A stretch of 46,865 nucleotides of DNA, taken from contig JAICKA010000017.1 of NCBI GenBank assembly GCA_025928185.1, positions 1-46,865 of the forward strand, in the 5' to 3' direction. Source of the DNA: Gemmatimonadaceae bacterium. Its GTDB lineage: Bacteria; Gemmatimonadota; Gemmatimonadetes; Gemmatimonadales; Gemmatimonadaceae. Below are positions 10,990-16,581 of this stretch, one piece after another. Each line of letters begins with the position of its first letter. Position 1 is the stretch's first letter. Below the pieces are notes generated by a model, which was not told where the DNA came from, ran no database searches, and was given only the letters and a program-made list of their open reading frames with translations. The translations under genes and the position numbers were made by a program.

Positions 10990-12852
10990 TTACCTCCCAA
11001 ATACGTCCAGCGCCAATTCCACCTTGCCGAACGGCGCCGACACCTGCACGCCTTGCACGATCGGCCTGATCCGGTCCAGCATCTCGCGCGCGATCGCGAT
11101 CCCTTCCGCCACCGCGTGCTCCTTCGACCGCTCGTTCGCGCGCCGCATGCGCGCGATGATCTCGTCCGGCACCGACACGCCCGGCACCTCGTTCGCCAGG
11201 AACTCCGCGTTTCGCACCGACACCAGCGGCCAGATGCCGGCGACGATCGGAATGTGCGACGCGCCGACGCGCTCGAGAAACTTCTCGAGCTGAGCCGCGT
11301 CGAATACCGGCTGCGTGATCGCGAACTCCGCGCCCGCATCCACCTTCCACTCGAACCGACGCAGCTCCTGCTGGAGATCGATCGCCACCGGATTCACGCC
11401 GACGCCGATCGCGAACCGCGTCGGCTCGCCGATCGCGTTCCCGCCCGGATCCATGCCTTCGTTCAGGTGCCGTATGAGATTCGTCAACCCGATCGAGTCG
11501 ACGTCGAACACGGCCGTCGCGTCGGGATACGGTCCCATCTTCGGCGGGTCGCCGGTGATGACGAGCAGGTTGCGGAGCCCAACGGCCGACGCGCCCAATA
11601 GATCGCTGAGCATGCCGAGCAGGTTGCGATCGCGGCAGGCGTAATGCGTCACCGTCTCGATGCCGACCTGCTGCTCGATCAGGACACTCGTCATCAGCGC
11701 GCCCATGCGGCTCTGCGCGCGCGGGCCATCCGGCACGTTCACCGCGTCGACACCGGCCGTCTTGAGACGCGCCACGTCGGCGAGCATGCGTGTGGCGTCC
11801 ACGCCGCGCGGCGGCACGATCTCGACCGACGTCACGAACTGTTTGCGCGCCAGCTTGCCCGCCCAGCGCGAACGTTCGGCGAACGGAATCGCCGGCACTG
11901 GATGCTGCGTCGGCGCCGCGGGCGCCGTCTGGCGTCGGTCCGGTCCGACGTACGTCGCCGCGAGATTCTCCAGCCGCGGCGCGAGCGGCCGAATGCCTTC
12001 CACCATCGCGTGGATGTGATCGGGCGTCGTGCCGCAGCACCCGCCGACGATCTTCGCGCCCGCCTGCACGAGATGCCGTGCGTACGTCGCCATGTACTCC
12101 GGGCTCGCCATGTACATGCTGCGGCCGCCGACGTCGCGCGGCATGCCGGCGTTCGGCTGCGCGCTCAGCTTCTTGCGCGTCGCCGGCGCCATCTTCTCGA
12201 TGCACTCGAGGATCGTCTGGGGGCCGACGGAGCAATTCAGGCCGACGATGTCGGCCCCCCACGCGTCGAGCGCGCGGACGACGTCGTCCGGCGTCGCGCC
12301 GTACGGCGTGCGGCAGTCGGCGCCGATCGTCATCTGCGCGATCACCGGTGTGGTCGGCGACACCGAACGCGCGGCGCGAATCGCCTGCTCGATCTCCTCG
12401 AGGTCGGCGAACGTTTCGAGAATGAACAGGTCGACGCCTCCGTCGAGCAGGCCTTCCATCTGCTCGCGGAAGAACGCGCACGCTTCGTCCTTGCTCGTCG
12501 GCCCGTACGGCTCGAGACGAACGCCAAGCGGACCGACGGCGCCGGCGACGAGCGCGCGGTCAGCCGCTGCCTCGCGAGCCACGCGCGCCGCTGCGCGATT
12601 CAGCTCGCGCACCTGCTCCTGCAATCCGTACTGCGTGAGCTTCACGCGATTTGCGCCAAAGCTGTTCGTCTCGATCACGTCCGCACCCGCCGCGACGTAC
12701 TGCTTGTGGATGTCGCGCACGAGGTCGGGCGCGCGCAGCGCCAGCTCGTCGTAGCACTGGTTGATGAACACGCCCTTGCTGTACAGCATCGTGCCCATCG
12801 CGCCGTCGAAGACGACGATGCTCTTGGGATCGAGGAGACGCTCGACGTTCAC
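10990..12852 (-). CDS. Bifunctional homocysteine S-methyltransferase/5,10-methylenetetrahydrofolate reductase
   Basis: The 620-residue protein joins two modules. Residues 1-300 form a homocysteine-binding methyltransferase barrel (FDGAMGTMLY; zinc cysteines Cys207 in GLNCSVGP and Cys272-Cys273 in GGCCGTTPDH). Residues about 335-620 are a MetF-type methylenetetrahydrofolate reductase (SVEIVPPRGVD at the start, HYACRDRNLLG, GVNPVA). The same architecture is known from Bacillus YitJ. The reductase makes 5-methyl-THF, the methyl donor for MetH. Translation starts at GTG 12852, which overlaps the metH stop as GTGA, so the two are very likely coupled. What the extra homocysteine module methylates with, beside a full MetH, is uncertain; S-methylmethionine is one family substrate. 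Confidence 0.93.
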   Translation of the reverse strand: MNVERLLDPKSIVVFDGAMGTMLYSKGVFINQCYDELALRAPDLVRDIHKQYVAAGADVIETNSFGANRVKLTQYGLQEQVRELNRAAARVAREAAADRALVAGAVGPLGVRLEPYGPTSKDEACAFFREQMEGLLDGGVDLFILETFADLEEIEQAIRAARSVSPTTPVIAQMTIGADCRTPYGATPDDVVRALDAWGADIVGLNCSVGPQTILECIEKMAPATRKKLSAQPNAGMPRDVGGRSMYMASPEYMATYARHLVQAGAKIVGGCCGTTPDHIHAMVEGIRPLAPRLENLAATYVGPDRRQTAPAAPTQHPVPAIPFAERSRWAGKLARKQFVTSVEIVPPRGVDATRMLADVARLKTAGVDAVNVPDGPRAQSRMGALMTSVLIEQQVGIETVTHYACRDRNLLGMLSDLLGASAVGLRNLLVITGDPPKMGPYPDATAVFDVDSIGLTNLIRHLNEGMDPGGNAIGEPTRFAIGVGVNPVAIDLQQELRRFEWKVDAGAEFAITQPVFDAAQLEKFLERVGASHIPIVAGIWPLVSVRNAEFLANEVPGVSVPDEIIARMRRANERSKEHAVAEGIAIAREMLDRIRPIVQGVQVSAPFGKVELALDVFGR

Positions 12853-15800
12853 GCGGCCGCGCCCTCGCCGGCGGTGCGCACGGCGTAGTACTTGGCCTGC
12901 GGATGATGGATGATGATCGCCGCCGTGCTCTGTTCGGGCATCAACTGGAATGCGCTCGTCATCTGCATTCCCAGCTCACGCTCGGCCGGCAGCACAGCGA
13001 ACACCTGCGCGTGATCCTCGAGATCGGGACACGCACCGTAGCCCCATGAATAGCGCTTGCCGCGGCCACCCGGCATCCCGAGCTCCTGACGAATGTGCCG
13101 GTGCATCCACTCGGCCGTCGCCTCGGCCGATTCGACGGAGAGGCCGTGCACGTAAAAGGCTTCGGTGTATTCGCCGGCTCCCTGCAGCTGATCGAACCGC
13201 TCTGCAGCGCGATTGCCAACGGTGACGATCTGCAAGCCGACGACATCGACGTCGCCCGACTTCACGGAGCGGAAGTAGTCGGCGAGACAGAGTCGCTCTC
13301 GCCCTTCCTGTCGCGGGAAATGGAACCGCGCGATCTCGCGCGTCGTACCGTCGGCCGCGTACGCGTCAGGATCGTAGACGATGACGTCGTTCCCTTGCGA
13401 CTGGGCAGGGAAGTAGCCGTACACGGCACGCGGTGCGAGCCAACCCTCGCGCTTCGCCGCTTCCTGCAGCCGAAAGCGCGTCGGCTCGAACTCGCCCTTC
13501 ACCAGCGCATCGTATTCCGGACCGGAGCCGCGCGCGCCCCACTGCAGCCGGTACAGCTCGTCGAGGTCGAGCAGCGCGAACACCTCGCCGATTGGAATGT
13601 CGCGCAGCGTGCGCACGCCCCAGAATGGCGCCACTGGAATCGGATGATCGGCGGTGACGTCGCTGCGCTGGCCGCCGGCGATTCCCGCCGACGTGTCCTT
13701 GCCAACGTTCGTATTCAGAAACTTGTCGGCCTTCGCATCGGCGAGCAGCTGTTCGACGAACGCGTCGCGCTTCGACTTGTCCTGCAGCCGGTCCATCGAA
13801 TCGAGCCCTTCGAACGCGTCCTTGCAGTAGAACACGCCGGACTCGTAGGCCCGCTCGCCTTCCACGAACAGCGCGCGCCGTCCGAAGCGGCGGTTGATCG
13901 CTGCGCCGCCGATCAGCACTGGGATGTGCATCCCGCGCCGATCCAGCTCCTGCACGCAGAGCGGCATCTGCTTCGACGTCGATACGAGCAGCGCCGACAA
14001 TCCGATCGCGTCGGCGTTCACCTCGATCGCCTTCTCGATGATCGTGTTCACCGGCACCTGCTTTCCGAGGTCGAACACAGTGTAGCCGTTGTTCGAGAGA
14101 ATCGTGTTGACGAGCGACTTCCCGATGTCGTGCACGTCGCCGTACACCGTCGCCAGCACCACGCGCCCCTTGGTGTAGCCCTCGGCGCGCTCGAGGAACT
14201 GCTCGAGGTGCTTCACCGCCTTCTTCATCACCTCGGCGGACTGCAGCACGAACGGCAGAATCAGCTCACCGGCGCCGAACTTGTCGCCGACTTCCTTCAT
14301 CGCCGGCAGCAGCACGTCGTTGAGCACGCGCACCGGCTCGTCGCGCACGCCCGCCGCGTCGAGCGCCCCCTCGATCCCGTCCTTCTTGCGGTGCACGATC
14401 ATCCAGTGCACGCGCTCATCCGGCGTCATCGACGCCGTCGGATCCTCGGTCGCCGCCTCTGTCCTCTCTCCTCTACCCGCTGTCTGCTCGAAGTGTTCGA
14501 TGAACCGTTGCAGCGCATCCGGCCGCCGGTTGAACACCAAGTCGTCCGCCAGCGCGCGCTCGTCCGGCGGAATCTCGGCGTACGGCTGCACGTGCGCCGG
14601 GTTCACGATCGCCATGTCGAGTCCCGCTTCCACGCAGTGGTGCAGGAACACGGAGTTGAGCACCGCGCGCGCGGCCGGCGCGAGCCCGAAGCTCACGTTC
14701 GACACGCCGAGGCTGGTGAACACGCCCGGCAGCTCGCGCTTGATCAGCCGGATGCCCTCGATCGTCTCGACCGCCGAGTCGATCCACTCCGCATCTCCCG
14801 TCGCGAGCGTGAAGGTGAGGTCGTCGTAGATCAGATCGCCGGCCGCGAGGCCGTACTCGCCGACGACGATGTCGTAGATCTTCTTCGCCACCTCGAGCTT
14901 GCGCTCGCGCGTCTTGGCCATGCCCTGCTCGTCGATCGTCAGCGCGACGAGCGCCGCGCCGTGCTTCTTCGCCAGCGGCACGACGCGCTCGATGCGCTGG
15001 CGGCCGTTTTCCATGTTGATGGAGTTGATGATCGCGCGGCCCGGAATCGCCTCGAGCGCGCGCTGGATCACCGCCGGCTCGGTCGAGTCGATCATGATCG
15101 GCGTGTCGACCGTCATCGACAGCAGCTTGACGACGGACGCCATCTGCTCGGCTTCGTCCGGCCGCTCGGTGACCGCGACGCAGACATCGAGCACGTGCGC
15201 GCCCGACTCCACCTGTTCGCGCGCGACATTCGAGATGCCCTCGTAGTCGTCGGCGAGCAGCAGCCGCTTGACCTTGCGCGATCCCTGCGCGTTGACGCGC
15301 TCACCGATCAGGAGCGGCTTGGGATTCTGATCGAAATCCGTCGCGCGCATCGCCGACGATGCGCGCGGCACGCGCGATCCGCGACTCGCACCGGCGCGCG
15401 CGTGCTTCCCATTGCTGCCGTTCGTCGACGACGCGCTGCCCTGAAGTTCGGCCACGCGCCTCACGACTGCGTCGAGATGCTCGGGCGTCGTGCCGCAGCA
15501 ACCGCCCACGATGCGCACGCCGAACTCTGACACCAGCTCGCCAAGCATGCGCGCCATTGGCTCGGGCTCGAGCGGATACACCGCGTCACCGGTTCCCGTA
15601 TTCAGCGGCAGACCTGCGTTCGGAATGCACGACACCGGCCGCGAGGCGTTCGCCGTCAGAAAGCGGATCGGCTCGCGCATGTGCTCGGGGCCTGTCGAAC
15701 AGTTGAGGCCAATCACGTCGATGCGCAGCGCCTCGAGCGTCGTCATCGCGCTCGCGATGTCGGTGCCGAGCAGCATGCGGCCGCTCGTGTCGAGCGTGAC

Positions 15801-16439
15801 CTGCGCCTGCACCGCGACGCGGCGCCCCAGCTCGGCGAACAGCCGCTCGAAGCCGGCGATCGCCGCTTTCATCTCGAGAATGTCCTGCGCCGTCTCGACG
15901 AGCAGCACGTCCACGCCGCCTTCGACGAGATACTTCGCCTGCGTGTAGTAGTTCTCCTCCAGCTCGGCGAAGGTGGTCTTCGAGAGCACCGGGTCGCTGC
16001 TCGAGAGCAGCATGCCAGTGGGCCCGATGGAGCCGGCGACGAATCGCGGCTTGTCGGGCGTTGCGTACTTGTCGCACGCGGCGCGCGCGAGCCGCGCGGC
16101 CGTCACGTTGATGTCGCGTGTCTTCTCCTCGATGCCCCACTCGCGCAATCGGTGCGGCGTCGACTGGAAGGTGCACGTCTCCACGACGTCGCATCCCACG
16201 GCGAGAAACGACTCGTGGATCGACTGGATGATGTCCGGCCGCGTGAGCACGAGGTGATCGTTGCAGCCCTCGAGCTGCTTGCCGCCGAAATCCTCGGCCG
16301 TGGGGTGGAAGCGCTGAATGTTCGTGCCCATCGCGCCATCGAACACGAGAACGCCGCGCGCGAGCGCATCGAGATAAGCACTCGGCGTGGCGCCGGTCGA
16401 GGCAGCGGAATCGGGAGCGACAGCAGATTGTTGTGACAT
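12849..16439 (-). CDS. metH: Cobalamin-dependent methionine synthase
   Basis: The 1196-residue enzyme transfers methyl from 5-methyl-THF to homocysteine through cobalamin. All modules are present in order: homocysteine barrel 1-330 (Cys247, Cys314, Cys315 as zinc ligands in GLNCSTGP and GGCCGTTPE), pterin barrel about 375-630 (ERVNAQGSRKVKRL), B12 cap about 670-740, cobalamin domain with His770 in GDVHDIGKSL, and the SAM-dependent reactivation domain about 930-1190 (SWGYGACPDLEDH). Length is close to E. coli MetH. Two low-complexity linkers, near 338-360 and 640-660, separate modules. No Shine-Dalgarno is visible before the ATG at 16439. The leader instead holds a SAM-II-like aptamer and an intrinsic terminator, so SAM-controlled termination is likely. 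Confidence 0.97.
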   Translation of the reverse strand: MSQQSAVAPDSAASTGATPSAYLDALARGVLVFDGAMGTNIQRFHPTAEDFGGKQLEGCNDHLVLTRPDIIQSIHESFLAVGCDVVETCTFQSTPHRLREWGIEEKTRDINVTAARLARAACDKYATPDKPRFVAGSIGPTGMLLSSSDPVLSKTTFAELEENYYTQAKYLVEGGVDVLLVETAQDILEMKAAIAGFERLFAELGRRVAVQAQVTLDTSGRMLLGTDIASAMTTLEALRIDVIGLNCSTGPEHMREPIRFLTANASRPVSCIPNAGLPLNTGTGDAVYPLEPEPMARMLGELVSEFGVRIVGGCCGTTPEHLDAVVRRVAELQGSASSTNGSNGKHARAGASRGSRVPRASSAMRATDFDQNPKPLLIGERVNAQGSRKVKRLLLADDYEGISNVAREQVESGAHVLDVCVAVTERPDEAEQMASVVKLLSMTVDTPIMIDSTEPAVIQRALEAIPGRAIINSINMENGRQRIERVVPLAKKHGAALVALTIDEQGMAKTRERKLEVAKKIYDIVVGEYGLAAGDLIYDDLTFTLATGDAEWIDSAVETIEGIRLIKRELPGVFTSLGVSNVSFGLAPAARAVLNSVFLHHCVEAGLDMAIVNPAHVQPYAEIPPDERALADDLVFNRRPDALQRFIEHFEQTAGRGERTEAATEDPTASMTPDERVHWMIVHRKKDGIEGALDAAGVRDEPVRVLNDVLLPAMKEVGDKFGAGELILPFVLQSAEVMKKAVKHLEQFLERAEGYTKGRVVLATVYGDVHDIGKSLVNTILSNNGYTVFDLGKQVPVNTIIEKAIEVNADAIGLSALLVSTSKQMPLCVQELDRRGMHIPVLIGGAAINRRFGRRALFVEGERAYESGVFYCKDAFEGLDSMDRLQDKSKRDAFVEQLLADAKADKFLNTNVGKDTSAGIAGGQRSDVTADHPIPVAPFWGVRTLRDIPIGEVFALLDLDELYRLQWGARGSGPEYDALVKGEFEPTRFRLQEAAKREGWLAPRAVYGYFPAQSQGNDVIVYDPDAYAADGTTREIARFHFPRQEGRERLCLADYFRSVKSGDVDVVGLQIVTVGNRAAERFDQLQGAGEYTEAFYVHGLSVESAEATAEWMHRHIRQELGMPGGRGKRYSWGYGACPDLEDHAQVFAVLPAERELGMQMTSAFQLMPEQSTAAIIIHHPQAKYYAVRTAGEGAAA

Positions 16440-16448
16440 TCGGTATGC

Positions 16449-16476
16449 AAAAAGAAAAACGCCCGCAGCGCGGGCG
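16449..16476 (-). terminator. Intrinsic terminator in the metH leader
   Basis: On the minus strand a perfect 7-bp GC-rich stem (CGCCCGC / GCGGGCG, 3-nt GCT apex) at 16460-16476 is followed directly by TTTTTCTTTTT at 16449-16459. It ends 9 nt before the metH ATG and 8 nt downstream of the aptamer, so it fits a transcriptional expression platform for the SAM-II-like element. It is too close to metH to act as a terminator for an upstream gene alone. Confidence 0.88.
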
Positions 16477-16484
16477 CTCGGGCC

Positions 16485-16537
16485 GGCGCTTTAGCGGAAT
16501 ATTTTACGTGGCCGCAATTTGCCTGAAATCGCCACGG
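16485..16537 (-). promoter_or_regulatory. SAM-II (metA-type) riboswitch aptamer upstream of metH
   Basis: The minus strand holds the complete SAM-II core. Stem P1 is CGTGGC (16531-16536) with GCCACG (16507-16512), 6 bp. Its 18-nt loop begins GATTT (16526-16530) and ends TTGCG. An 11-nt AT-rich linker, TAAAATATTCC, leads to the diagnostic GCTAAA, then GCGCC. The loop segment GGC (two bases after GATTT, 16521-16523) can pair with GCC (two bases after GCTAAA, 16485-16487), forming the expected H-type pseudoknot. Known SAM-II RNAs bind S-adenosylmethionine and repress methionine genes, which fits the metH-metF operon downstream. Identification is by eye; a covariance search with the Rfam SAM-II model would settle it. 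Confidence 0.82.
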
Positions 16538-16552
16538 ATCAGTTGTACTCGT

Positions 16553-16581
16553 AGTCTATCAGCCCGCCGTCCGGCGGGCAA
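16553..16581 (-). promoter_or_regulatory. Possible promoter of the metH operon
   Basis: On the minus strand TTGCCC (16576-16581) and TAGACT (16553-16558) are separated by 17 bp. A start about 7 bases past the -10 box would place the transcript start just ahead of the aptamer, which supports it. The boxes match the sigma-70 consensus only partly (4 of 6 each). Confidence 0.4.
16562..16579. repeat. Perfect inverted repeat downstream of the receiver-like gene
   Basis: GCCCGCC and GGCGGGC flank GTCC, giving a 7-bp GC hairpin 14 bp past the stop of the gene ending at 16594. There is no T tract, so it is a weak or factor-assisted terminator candidate. It overlaps the proposed metH promoter. Confidence 0.5.

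Follow-up and report, generated by a model that had tools for sequence, protein, structure and literature searches.

By every identity test that could be run on its sequence, the leader of metH in the window (the whole stretch of DNA that was analysed, 46,865 bases) is a genuine SAM-II riboswitch, and modelled folds indicate that it very probably works as an OFF switch through transcription attenuation of the metH–metF operon. When all Rfam families were applied with cmscan, RF00521 (SAM_alpha, or SAM-II) matched positions 16545–16471 of the minus strand over the full model (1-79) with 41.0 bits, above the cut-off of 36, as the first-pass annotation had led one to expect. The E-value was 6e-6 over the whole 46,865-base window and 3.1e-8 on the leader alone, and RF00521 was the sole Rfam family above cut-off in the window. 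In a permissive scan of the 241-base leader with 4227 families, the next-best family reached only E 1.1, and SAM-V was absent from the ten matches at E<=10. SAM-V is a simple pseudoknot in which many of the ligand-contacting bases of SAM-II have counterparts, and some SAM-V elements precede metH (PMC2704228), but the window's leader has no SAM-V match at E<=10; SAM-V or another SAM class was thus rejected for this leader.

A whole SAM-II core had been claimed for the metH leader, and P1, the loop motifs, the linker, GCTAAA and a GGC/GCC P2 are all present on the minus strand:

16471–16545, minus strand: SAM-II (RF00521) aptamer, whole model by cmscan
16531–16536, minus strand: P1 5′ strand CGTGGC, with its partner at 16507–16512
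16530–16526, minus strand: loop start GATTT
16521–16523, minus strand: P2 5′ strand GGC, in the loop (S1), from sequence and closing-pair counts
16517–16513, minus strand: loop end TTGCG
16513, minus strand: last loop base G16513, forming the P1a tertiary pair with C16497, from pair types across 59 leaders
16507–16512, minus strand: P1 3′ strand GCCACG, 6 bp with CGTGGC
16506–16496, minus strand: linker TAAAATATTCC
16490–16495, minus strand: GCTAAA core, invariant in 59/59 leaders but demanded by the selection pattern
16485–16487, minus strand: P2 3′ strand GCC, part of S2 AAAGCGCC, from sequence and closing-pair counts

With the metA motif of RF00521 (PMC1273637) the leader shares the whole model, P1, P2, P1a, GAUUU, UUGC and GCUAAA, as well as promoter-like boxes shortly before P1, a terminator between P2 and the ORF and a methionine gene downstream; it differs in its phylum, Gemmatimonadota, and in its target, metH-metF.

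Related leaders were collected from 241 loci screened by a core pattern, 171 of which carried the core; the pattern missed three covariance-model matches (L174, L211 and L234), and it included P1 pairing and GCTAAA but not P2 pairing. Covariation was measured in 59 nonredundant leaders of <80% identity with a close terminator. In these, the P2 closing pair is GC in 27, CG in 16 and AU in 2 (other or unpaired in 9, gap in 5), and the P1a tertiary pair, predicted earlier (Barrick & Breaker 2007; PMC2258182), is GC in 24, CG in 13, AU in 11 and GU in 4 (other or unpaired in 7). The covariation score of P2 and P1a was 0.194 against 0.085 in shuffles, none of 500 being as high; paired cells made up 97.0% against 90.2% in shuffles, and pairing dropped from 97% to 24–36% when partners were slid by 1–3 columns. 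Two of the five measures were not exceptional, namely pairs changed on both sides (3 vs 2.1, 37/500 shuffles as high) and further pair types (10 vs 9.3, 138/500 as high). P1 is paired at all six positions in 59/59 leaders and its third pair is UA in 56, CG in 2 and AU in 1; with so little variation, and with its pairing demanded by the selection pattern, P1 contributes little. Covarying pairs in related leaders, a further expectation of the first-pass annotation, are therefore found at the P2 closing pair and P1a but scarcely in P1. A duplex-swap energy test of P2 over all 59 leaders was uninformative (z -0.02), since two of the three base pairs of P2 scarcely vary, and the pair count was used instead.

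Downstream of the aptamer lie the terminator and the operon:

16457–16479, minus strand: intrinsic terminator hairpin, 10 bp, -16.7 kcal/mol
16449–16459, minus strand: terminator U tract TTTTTCTTTTT
12849–16439, minus strand: metH, cobalamin-dependent methionine synthase, 1196 aa (TIGR02082, 1112.9 bits, cut-off 1010.85)
10990–12852, minus strand: bifunctional homocysteine S-methyltransferase/methylenetetrahydrofolate reductase, 620 aa (NF006396, 750.9 bits, cut-off 453)

The two frames overlap by 4 nt, and with both models above their cut-offs the claimed operon of metH and a bifunctional metF is borne out. The perfect terminator described earlier, CGCCCGC-gct-GCGGGCG followed by a U tract, is present, and the best-scoring stem, GAGCGCCCGC/GCGGGCGTTT at -16.7 kcal/mol, is longer. 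The U tract stops at 16449 and the ATG of metH stands at 16439, which agrees with the 9 nt reported between them, and no Shine-Dalgarno sequence is visible, again as reported. Under a 120-nt rule, which looks within that distance for a hairpin of -7 kcal/mol or better and a T-rich tail, 143 of the 171 leaders have a terminator-like hairpin, a few of these being inside the coding region, and a close terminator (start within 30 nt) occurs in 138/171; in the held-out leaders described below, the 120-nt rule found terminators in 59/73 against 35/219 dinucleotide shuffles. SD-like sequences near the mechanically called start were seen in 4/44 metH leaders of class A, the window's class.

Another platform appears in metH leaders of another family (L007, L011, L014 and L016), where the start comes right after P2, GCTAAAACGCCAGGATG, without a close terminator; L008 likewise begins translation right after P2 (AAGCCAGGATG, no close terminator), and in L014 the frame after P2 reads into MetH. 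Judged by sequence, these five leaders, which belong to the window's order, have likely changed their platform to direct occlusion. The first four of them would fit a reading of the window's SAM-II as real but mainly translational, with P2 blocking ribosome loading and the terminator constitutive or secondary. The metX SAM-II (PDB 2QWY), of the same aptamer class, is also described as direct ribosome-site occlusion (PMC10907184), and the S. meliloti metA terminator is not predicted to depend on SAM-II in the account of PMC9373788. Such control is nevertheless unlikely in the window, where ~45 nt, including the terminator, separate P2 from the ATG and there is no SD, and a close terminator is found in 59/64 class A leaders of metH, metF and hom; transcription attenuation is the preferred reading.

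Upstream of the aptamer are two promoter-like boxes:

16576–16581, minus strand: -35-like box TTGCCC, 17 bp upstream of the -10 box
16553–16558, minus strand: -10-like box TAGACT, at the TANNNT peak of related leaders

With their 17-bp spacing, these boxes look like a sigma-70-type promoter; the span given in the first-pass annotation ends at 16581, exactly where the likely -35 box starts. In the related leaders (171), TANNNT is most frequent 21–29 nt and TTG 44–52 nt upstream of the core, and transcription is therefore expected to start ~10 nt before P1, in the window near 16548-16545 as inferred; this agrees with Corbino 2005 (PMC1273637). The upstream ORF 17100–16594 had no Pfam match at E<=0.001. 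An inverted repeat, GCCCGCC-ggac-GGCGGGC (16579–16562), was rejected as a part of the riboswitch; transcripts from this promoter probably do not include it, since it sits between the -35 and -10 boxes. Leaders of the same genus have at this site a different 6-bp repeat (L034), one of 4 bp (L033) or none longer than 3 (L032 and L035). In 187 nonredundant leaders, repeats in the promoter spacer exceed those of shuffles only slightly in length (mean arm 3.83 vs 3.60), and arms of >=6 number 14 against 6.2 expected. Just past the upstream stop codon, the window at 16593-16562 has two overlapping inverted repeats with a common TGCCCGC, one of them within the promoter spacer. Separately, in 15 of 16 metF leaders (e.g. 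L042, L061, L147 and L169) the interval from the -35 to the -10 region contains a near-constant box around CATCCGTTCATCCGGAT, for which L054 has CATCTGTTTATCCGGAT; L048 is without the box. This partly palindromic box is possibly a protein operator on top of the riboswitch.

The attenuation reading of the window turns on an alternative hairpin:

16467–16490, minus strand: predicted antiterminator hairpin AGCGCC-GGC...GCC-C-GCGCT, RNAfold -13.0 kcal/mol, also from the class A complementarity described below

In the proposed mechanism, of which SAM binding, the direction of control and the switching itself are predictions, RNA polymerase would start ~10 nt before P1. At high SAM, the H-type pseudoknot would bind SAM and lock GCGCC (16489-16485) in P2, upon which the hairpin 16479-16457 and the U tract would form and transcription would stop before metH. 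At low SAM, the pseudoknot would open and AGCGCC would pair with GCGCT (16471-16467), helped by pairing of the linker/core bases CCGC with GCGG of the terminator 3′ strand; this antiterminator would break the terminator and let metH-metF be transcribed.

In the calculations, the antiterminator and the ligand-bound fold are mutually exclusive. Within growing transcripts, computed from GCTAAA on, the antiterminator hairpin (-13.0) is preferred up to the point where the U tract emerges. The 7-bp terminator stem has a mean probability of 0.147 when P1 is formed and the tail, together with the linker, is left free, and of 0.922 when the linker and the P2 3′ strand are locked to mimic the SAM-bound pseudoknot, so that the equilibrium effect is clear in the window. 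P1 is missing from the window's unconstrained minimum fold in RNAfold, which computes no pseudoknots. In most of the other class A leaders the terminator is favoured either way, with medians of 0.962 free and 0.985 locked from a calculation that, unlike the window's, left the linker out, and locking S2 raised it by more than 0.05 in only 4/16; such a rise was seen in 2/26 leaders of class C and 0/21 of class B, for which S2 is not the expected strand. As the terminator wins at equilibrium in most other leaders, a switch there would have to be kinetic, which argues against a purely thermodynamic reading.

Which strand of P2 is predicted to meet the terminator was assessed in three classes of leaders defined by the loop, which ends in GCAAA/GCAAC or close to it in class A (the window's class), is GCCGC-like in class B, and is mostly GCGGC or GCGC in class C, which holds the rest. 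S1 is the loop with the P2 5′ strand, S2 is AAA plus five bases with the P2 3′ strand, and t5 is the 5′ half of the terminator plus a few loop bases. The first set comprised 18, 22 and 19 leaders of classes A, B and C, respectively. Against dinucleotide-shuffled t5, class A has S2:t5 at -7.97 vs -5.66 (z -5.8, 0/200) and S1:t5 at z -1.1; class B has S1:t5 at -12.5 vs -8.7 (z -8.0, 0/200) and S2:t5 at z -0.6; class C has S2:t5 at z -3.6 (0/200) and S1:t5 at z 0.2. When partners were swapped among leaders, class B gave z -5.0 for S1 (0/5000) and 1.7 for S2, class C gave z -3.9 for S2 (1/5000) and 1.9 for S1, and class A gave z -3.4 for S2 (10/5000) and z -2.4 for S1 (60/5000). The swap test is weak in class A because S2 is almost invariant there; under a first platform classification it had shown no signal for class A S2:t5 (z 0.45), and the z of -3.4 came after reclassification by loop sequence.

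Because the classes had been drawn after looking, a held-out set of 79 further loci, 73 with the core and 57 with a close terminator, was tested under a fixed rule. Forty of these leaders share less than 90% identity with the first set and among themselves (A 11, B 16, C 13). In them, S2 of class A gave a shuffle z of -6.1 (0/200) and a swap z of -2.5 (18/5000), and S1 gave no signal in the 11 leaders (shuffle z +2.5, swap z +1.3); S1 of class B gave a shuffle z of -8.5 and 0/5000 swaps, with no signal for S2; and S2 of class C gave a shuffle z of -5.5 and 9/5000 swaps, with no signal for S1. Among the 16 leaders below 80%, the results against shuffles hold for B (5) and C (8) (0/200 each), with weaker swaps (160 and 374/5000). 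Most of the held-out class A leaders resemble one another or the first set at 80-90% and are thus not fully independent, with only 3 leaders below 80%.

Four rhizobial leaders from a plasmid collection (L242–L245), all Rhizobiaceae and so a sample of one clade, are class B-like, with S1:t5 at -12.8 to -17.3 and S2:t5 at -1.7 to -5.3; the core of L245 is altered to TCTAAA, and this locus lacks an annotated methionine gene. In L242, from S. meliloti, before an O-succinylhomoserine sulfhydrylase gene, the terminator 5′ strand prefers the aptamer loop at -13.8 over the P2 3′ strand at -1.7 kcal/mol, the reverse of the window's class, as computed from the L242 sequence. Class B and the four rhizobial leaders therefore seem to use the loop strand, opposite to the window's class. 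That the window, too, has a real aptamer with S1 (GGC) as its antiterminator is quite improbable: these leaders and the weak S1 swap signal of class A speak for it, but in the window itself S1:t5 is -5.1 against -7.1 for S2 in the region to mid-hairpin and -8.9 in a region 3 nt longer, and in neither set does S1:t5 of class A surpass the shuffles. The P2 3′ strand thus remains the preferred antiterminator of the window.

The classes differ in their genes. Class A (66/171 leaders) precedes metH in 45, metF in 16, hom in 3 and frames without assignment in two; class B (48/171) includes no metH; and class C (57/171) precedes metH in 48, metK in 3, thrC in 1 and others or unassigned frames in five. 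On balance, we lean towards gene-linked platforms in Gemmatimonadota SAM-II that would wire the same aptamer to the terminator through opposite P2 strands. Leaders of metH and metF would take the P2 3′ strand as antiterminator, and those of metY/Z, metX, panB and part of thrC (4/5) and hom (4/7) the P2 5′ strand in the loop, apparently in common with rhizobia, giving two mirror-image solutions whose choice would follow the target gene and not the species.

The genes behind the 171 leaders, named approximately because longest frames were clustered mechanically and only one representative per cluster was annotated, are metH (93), metF (16), metY/Z (13), metX (7), homoserine dehydrogenase (7), panB (6), threonine synthase (5), metK (3) and an ATP-grasp ligase (3). 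The leftover 18/171 are singletons or pairs, several probably in wrong frames, with Pfam assignments, one each, to sulfite/nitrite reductase, amino-acid kinase, rhodanese, a TonB-receptor plug domain (L151), OsmC-like (L182, a mechanical frame call), AAA ATPase and aminotransferase. Ketopantoate hydroxymethyltransferase, panB, follows SAM-II in L002, L022, L025, L029, L039 and L202, with L022 annotated; it belongs to the coenzyme A pathway and is not normally linked with SAM. Since metH, metF, metX, metY/Z, hom or metK comes next in 139/171 leaders, SAM is supported as the ligand.

The genome had been called Gemmatimonadota-like, and the named MetH relatives concur: 10 of the first 12 listed are Gemmatimonadaceae, Gemmatimonadales or Gemmatimonadetes MAGs at 72–77% identity, the closest among the matches listed, and the remaining 2 are a Chloroflexi and an Anaerolineae MAG at 61–62%. 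At least 583 MetH relatives were found and 80 named loci kept. By pattern, 13 of the 80 have a SAM-II core, all in MAGs named Gemmatimonadota, Gemmatimonadetes, Gemmatimonadales or Gemmatimonadaceae; the pattern finds no core in the remaining 67, which are mostly of Chloroflexi type and include Gemmatimonadota L080, L081, L098 and L106, two of which have short upstream sequence. Across the phylum, RF00521 is found at E<=0.001 in 263/395 genomes and above cut-off in 222/395, against 0/14 control genomes; it occurs in 131/138 genomes and 35/35 genera of the window's family and in 5/6 genomes of its genus.

A decayed or ligand-shifted relative that no longer senses SAM, responding for example to SAH or to nothing, is very improbable. 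SAM binding is predicted and 41 bits is only 5 above the cut-off, but the core motifs and tertiary pairs are intact, the element recurs in 4/5 genomes of the genus other than the window's own, and the targets are mainly methionine-cycle genes, all of which favours a SAM-sensing SAM-II.

The window's own genome, 90.1% complete, yielded a single RF00521 match and thus no second SAM-II, and SAM-I was not found in it. A search of it gave nothing for metX and, for metY, no relative closer than 42% identity, an empty answer that is weak evidence in a genome of this completeness; the usual class B targets may accordingly be missing from it. Elsewhere, SAM-I (RF00162) and SAM-II occur together at E<=0.001 in 20/395 Gemmatimonadota genomes, 16 of them with SAM-I above cut-off and 12 in one genus (g74: G042, G046, G054, G056, G060, G072, G149, G163, G201, G210, G260 and G293); no species with both was found in the survey reported by Barrick & Breaker 2007 (PMC2258182).

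The first-pass annotation had also held that SAM-II usually hides the ribosome site, and this is wrong. Terminators are the commonest predicted SAM-II platform in alpha- and beta-Proteobacteria according to Barrick & Breaker 2007 (PMC2258182), and putative intrinsic terminators are reported in many SAM-II representatives (Corbino 2005; PMC1273637). The premise may be explained by a JBC review that presents SAM-II under direct occlusion (PMC10907184). Attenuation by SAM-II was called not yet experimentally established in 2007 (PMC2258182) and has since been studied in S. meliloti, where the metZ SAM-II, like that of the window, stands directly before an intrinsic terminator, a predicted terminator switch with a short RNA that rises at high SAM (PMC9373788). 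As terminators are already common for SAM-II, the terminator platform is not the notable extension it had been taken for; the extension lies in the lineage, the targets and the strand choice. What is new is, in our reading, the lineage, the metH target and the likely antiterminator mechanism through the P2 3′ strand. No earlier description of SAM-II, SAM_alpha or a SAM riboswitch in Gemmatimonadota was found in the open-licence PMC literature.

These findings give a riboswitch class described chiefly in Alphaproteobacteria a central place in the methionine control of an entire phylum. Its main target there, metH, is not listed in a survey of Proteobacteria regulons, where the SAM_alpha targets named in the part consulted are metY, metA, metX, hom, metC and metW, and neither metH nor metF (PMC4239095). 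They also offer a testable wiring for SAM-II transcription attenuation, and suggest that the same aptamer can couple to a terminator via either strand of its pseudoknot.
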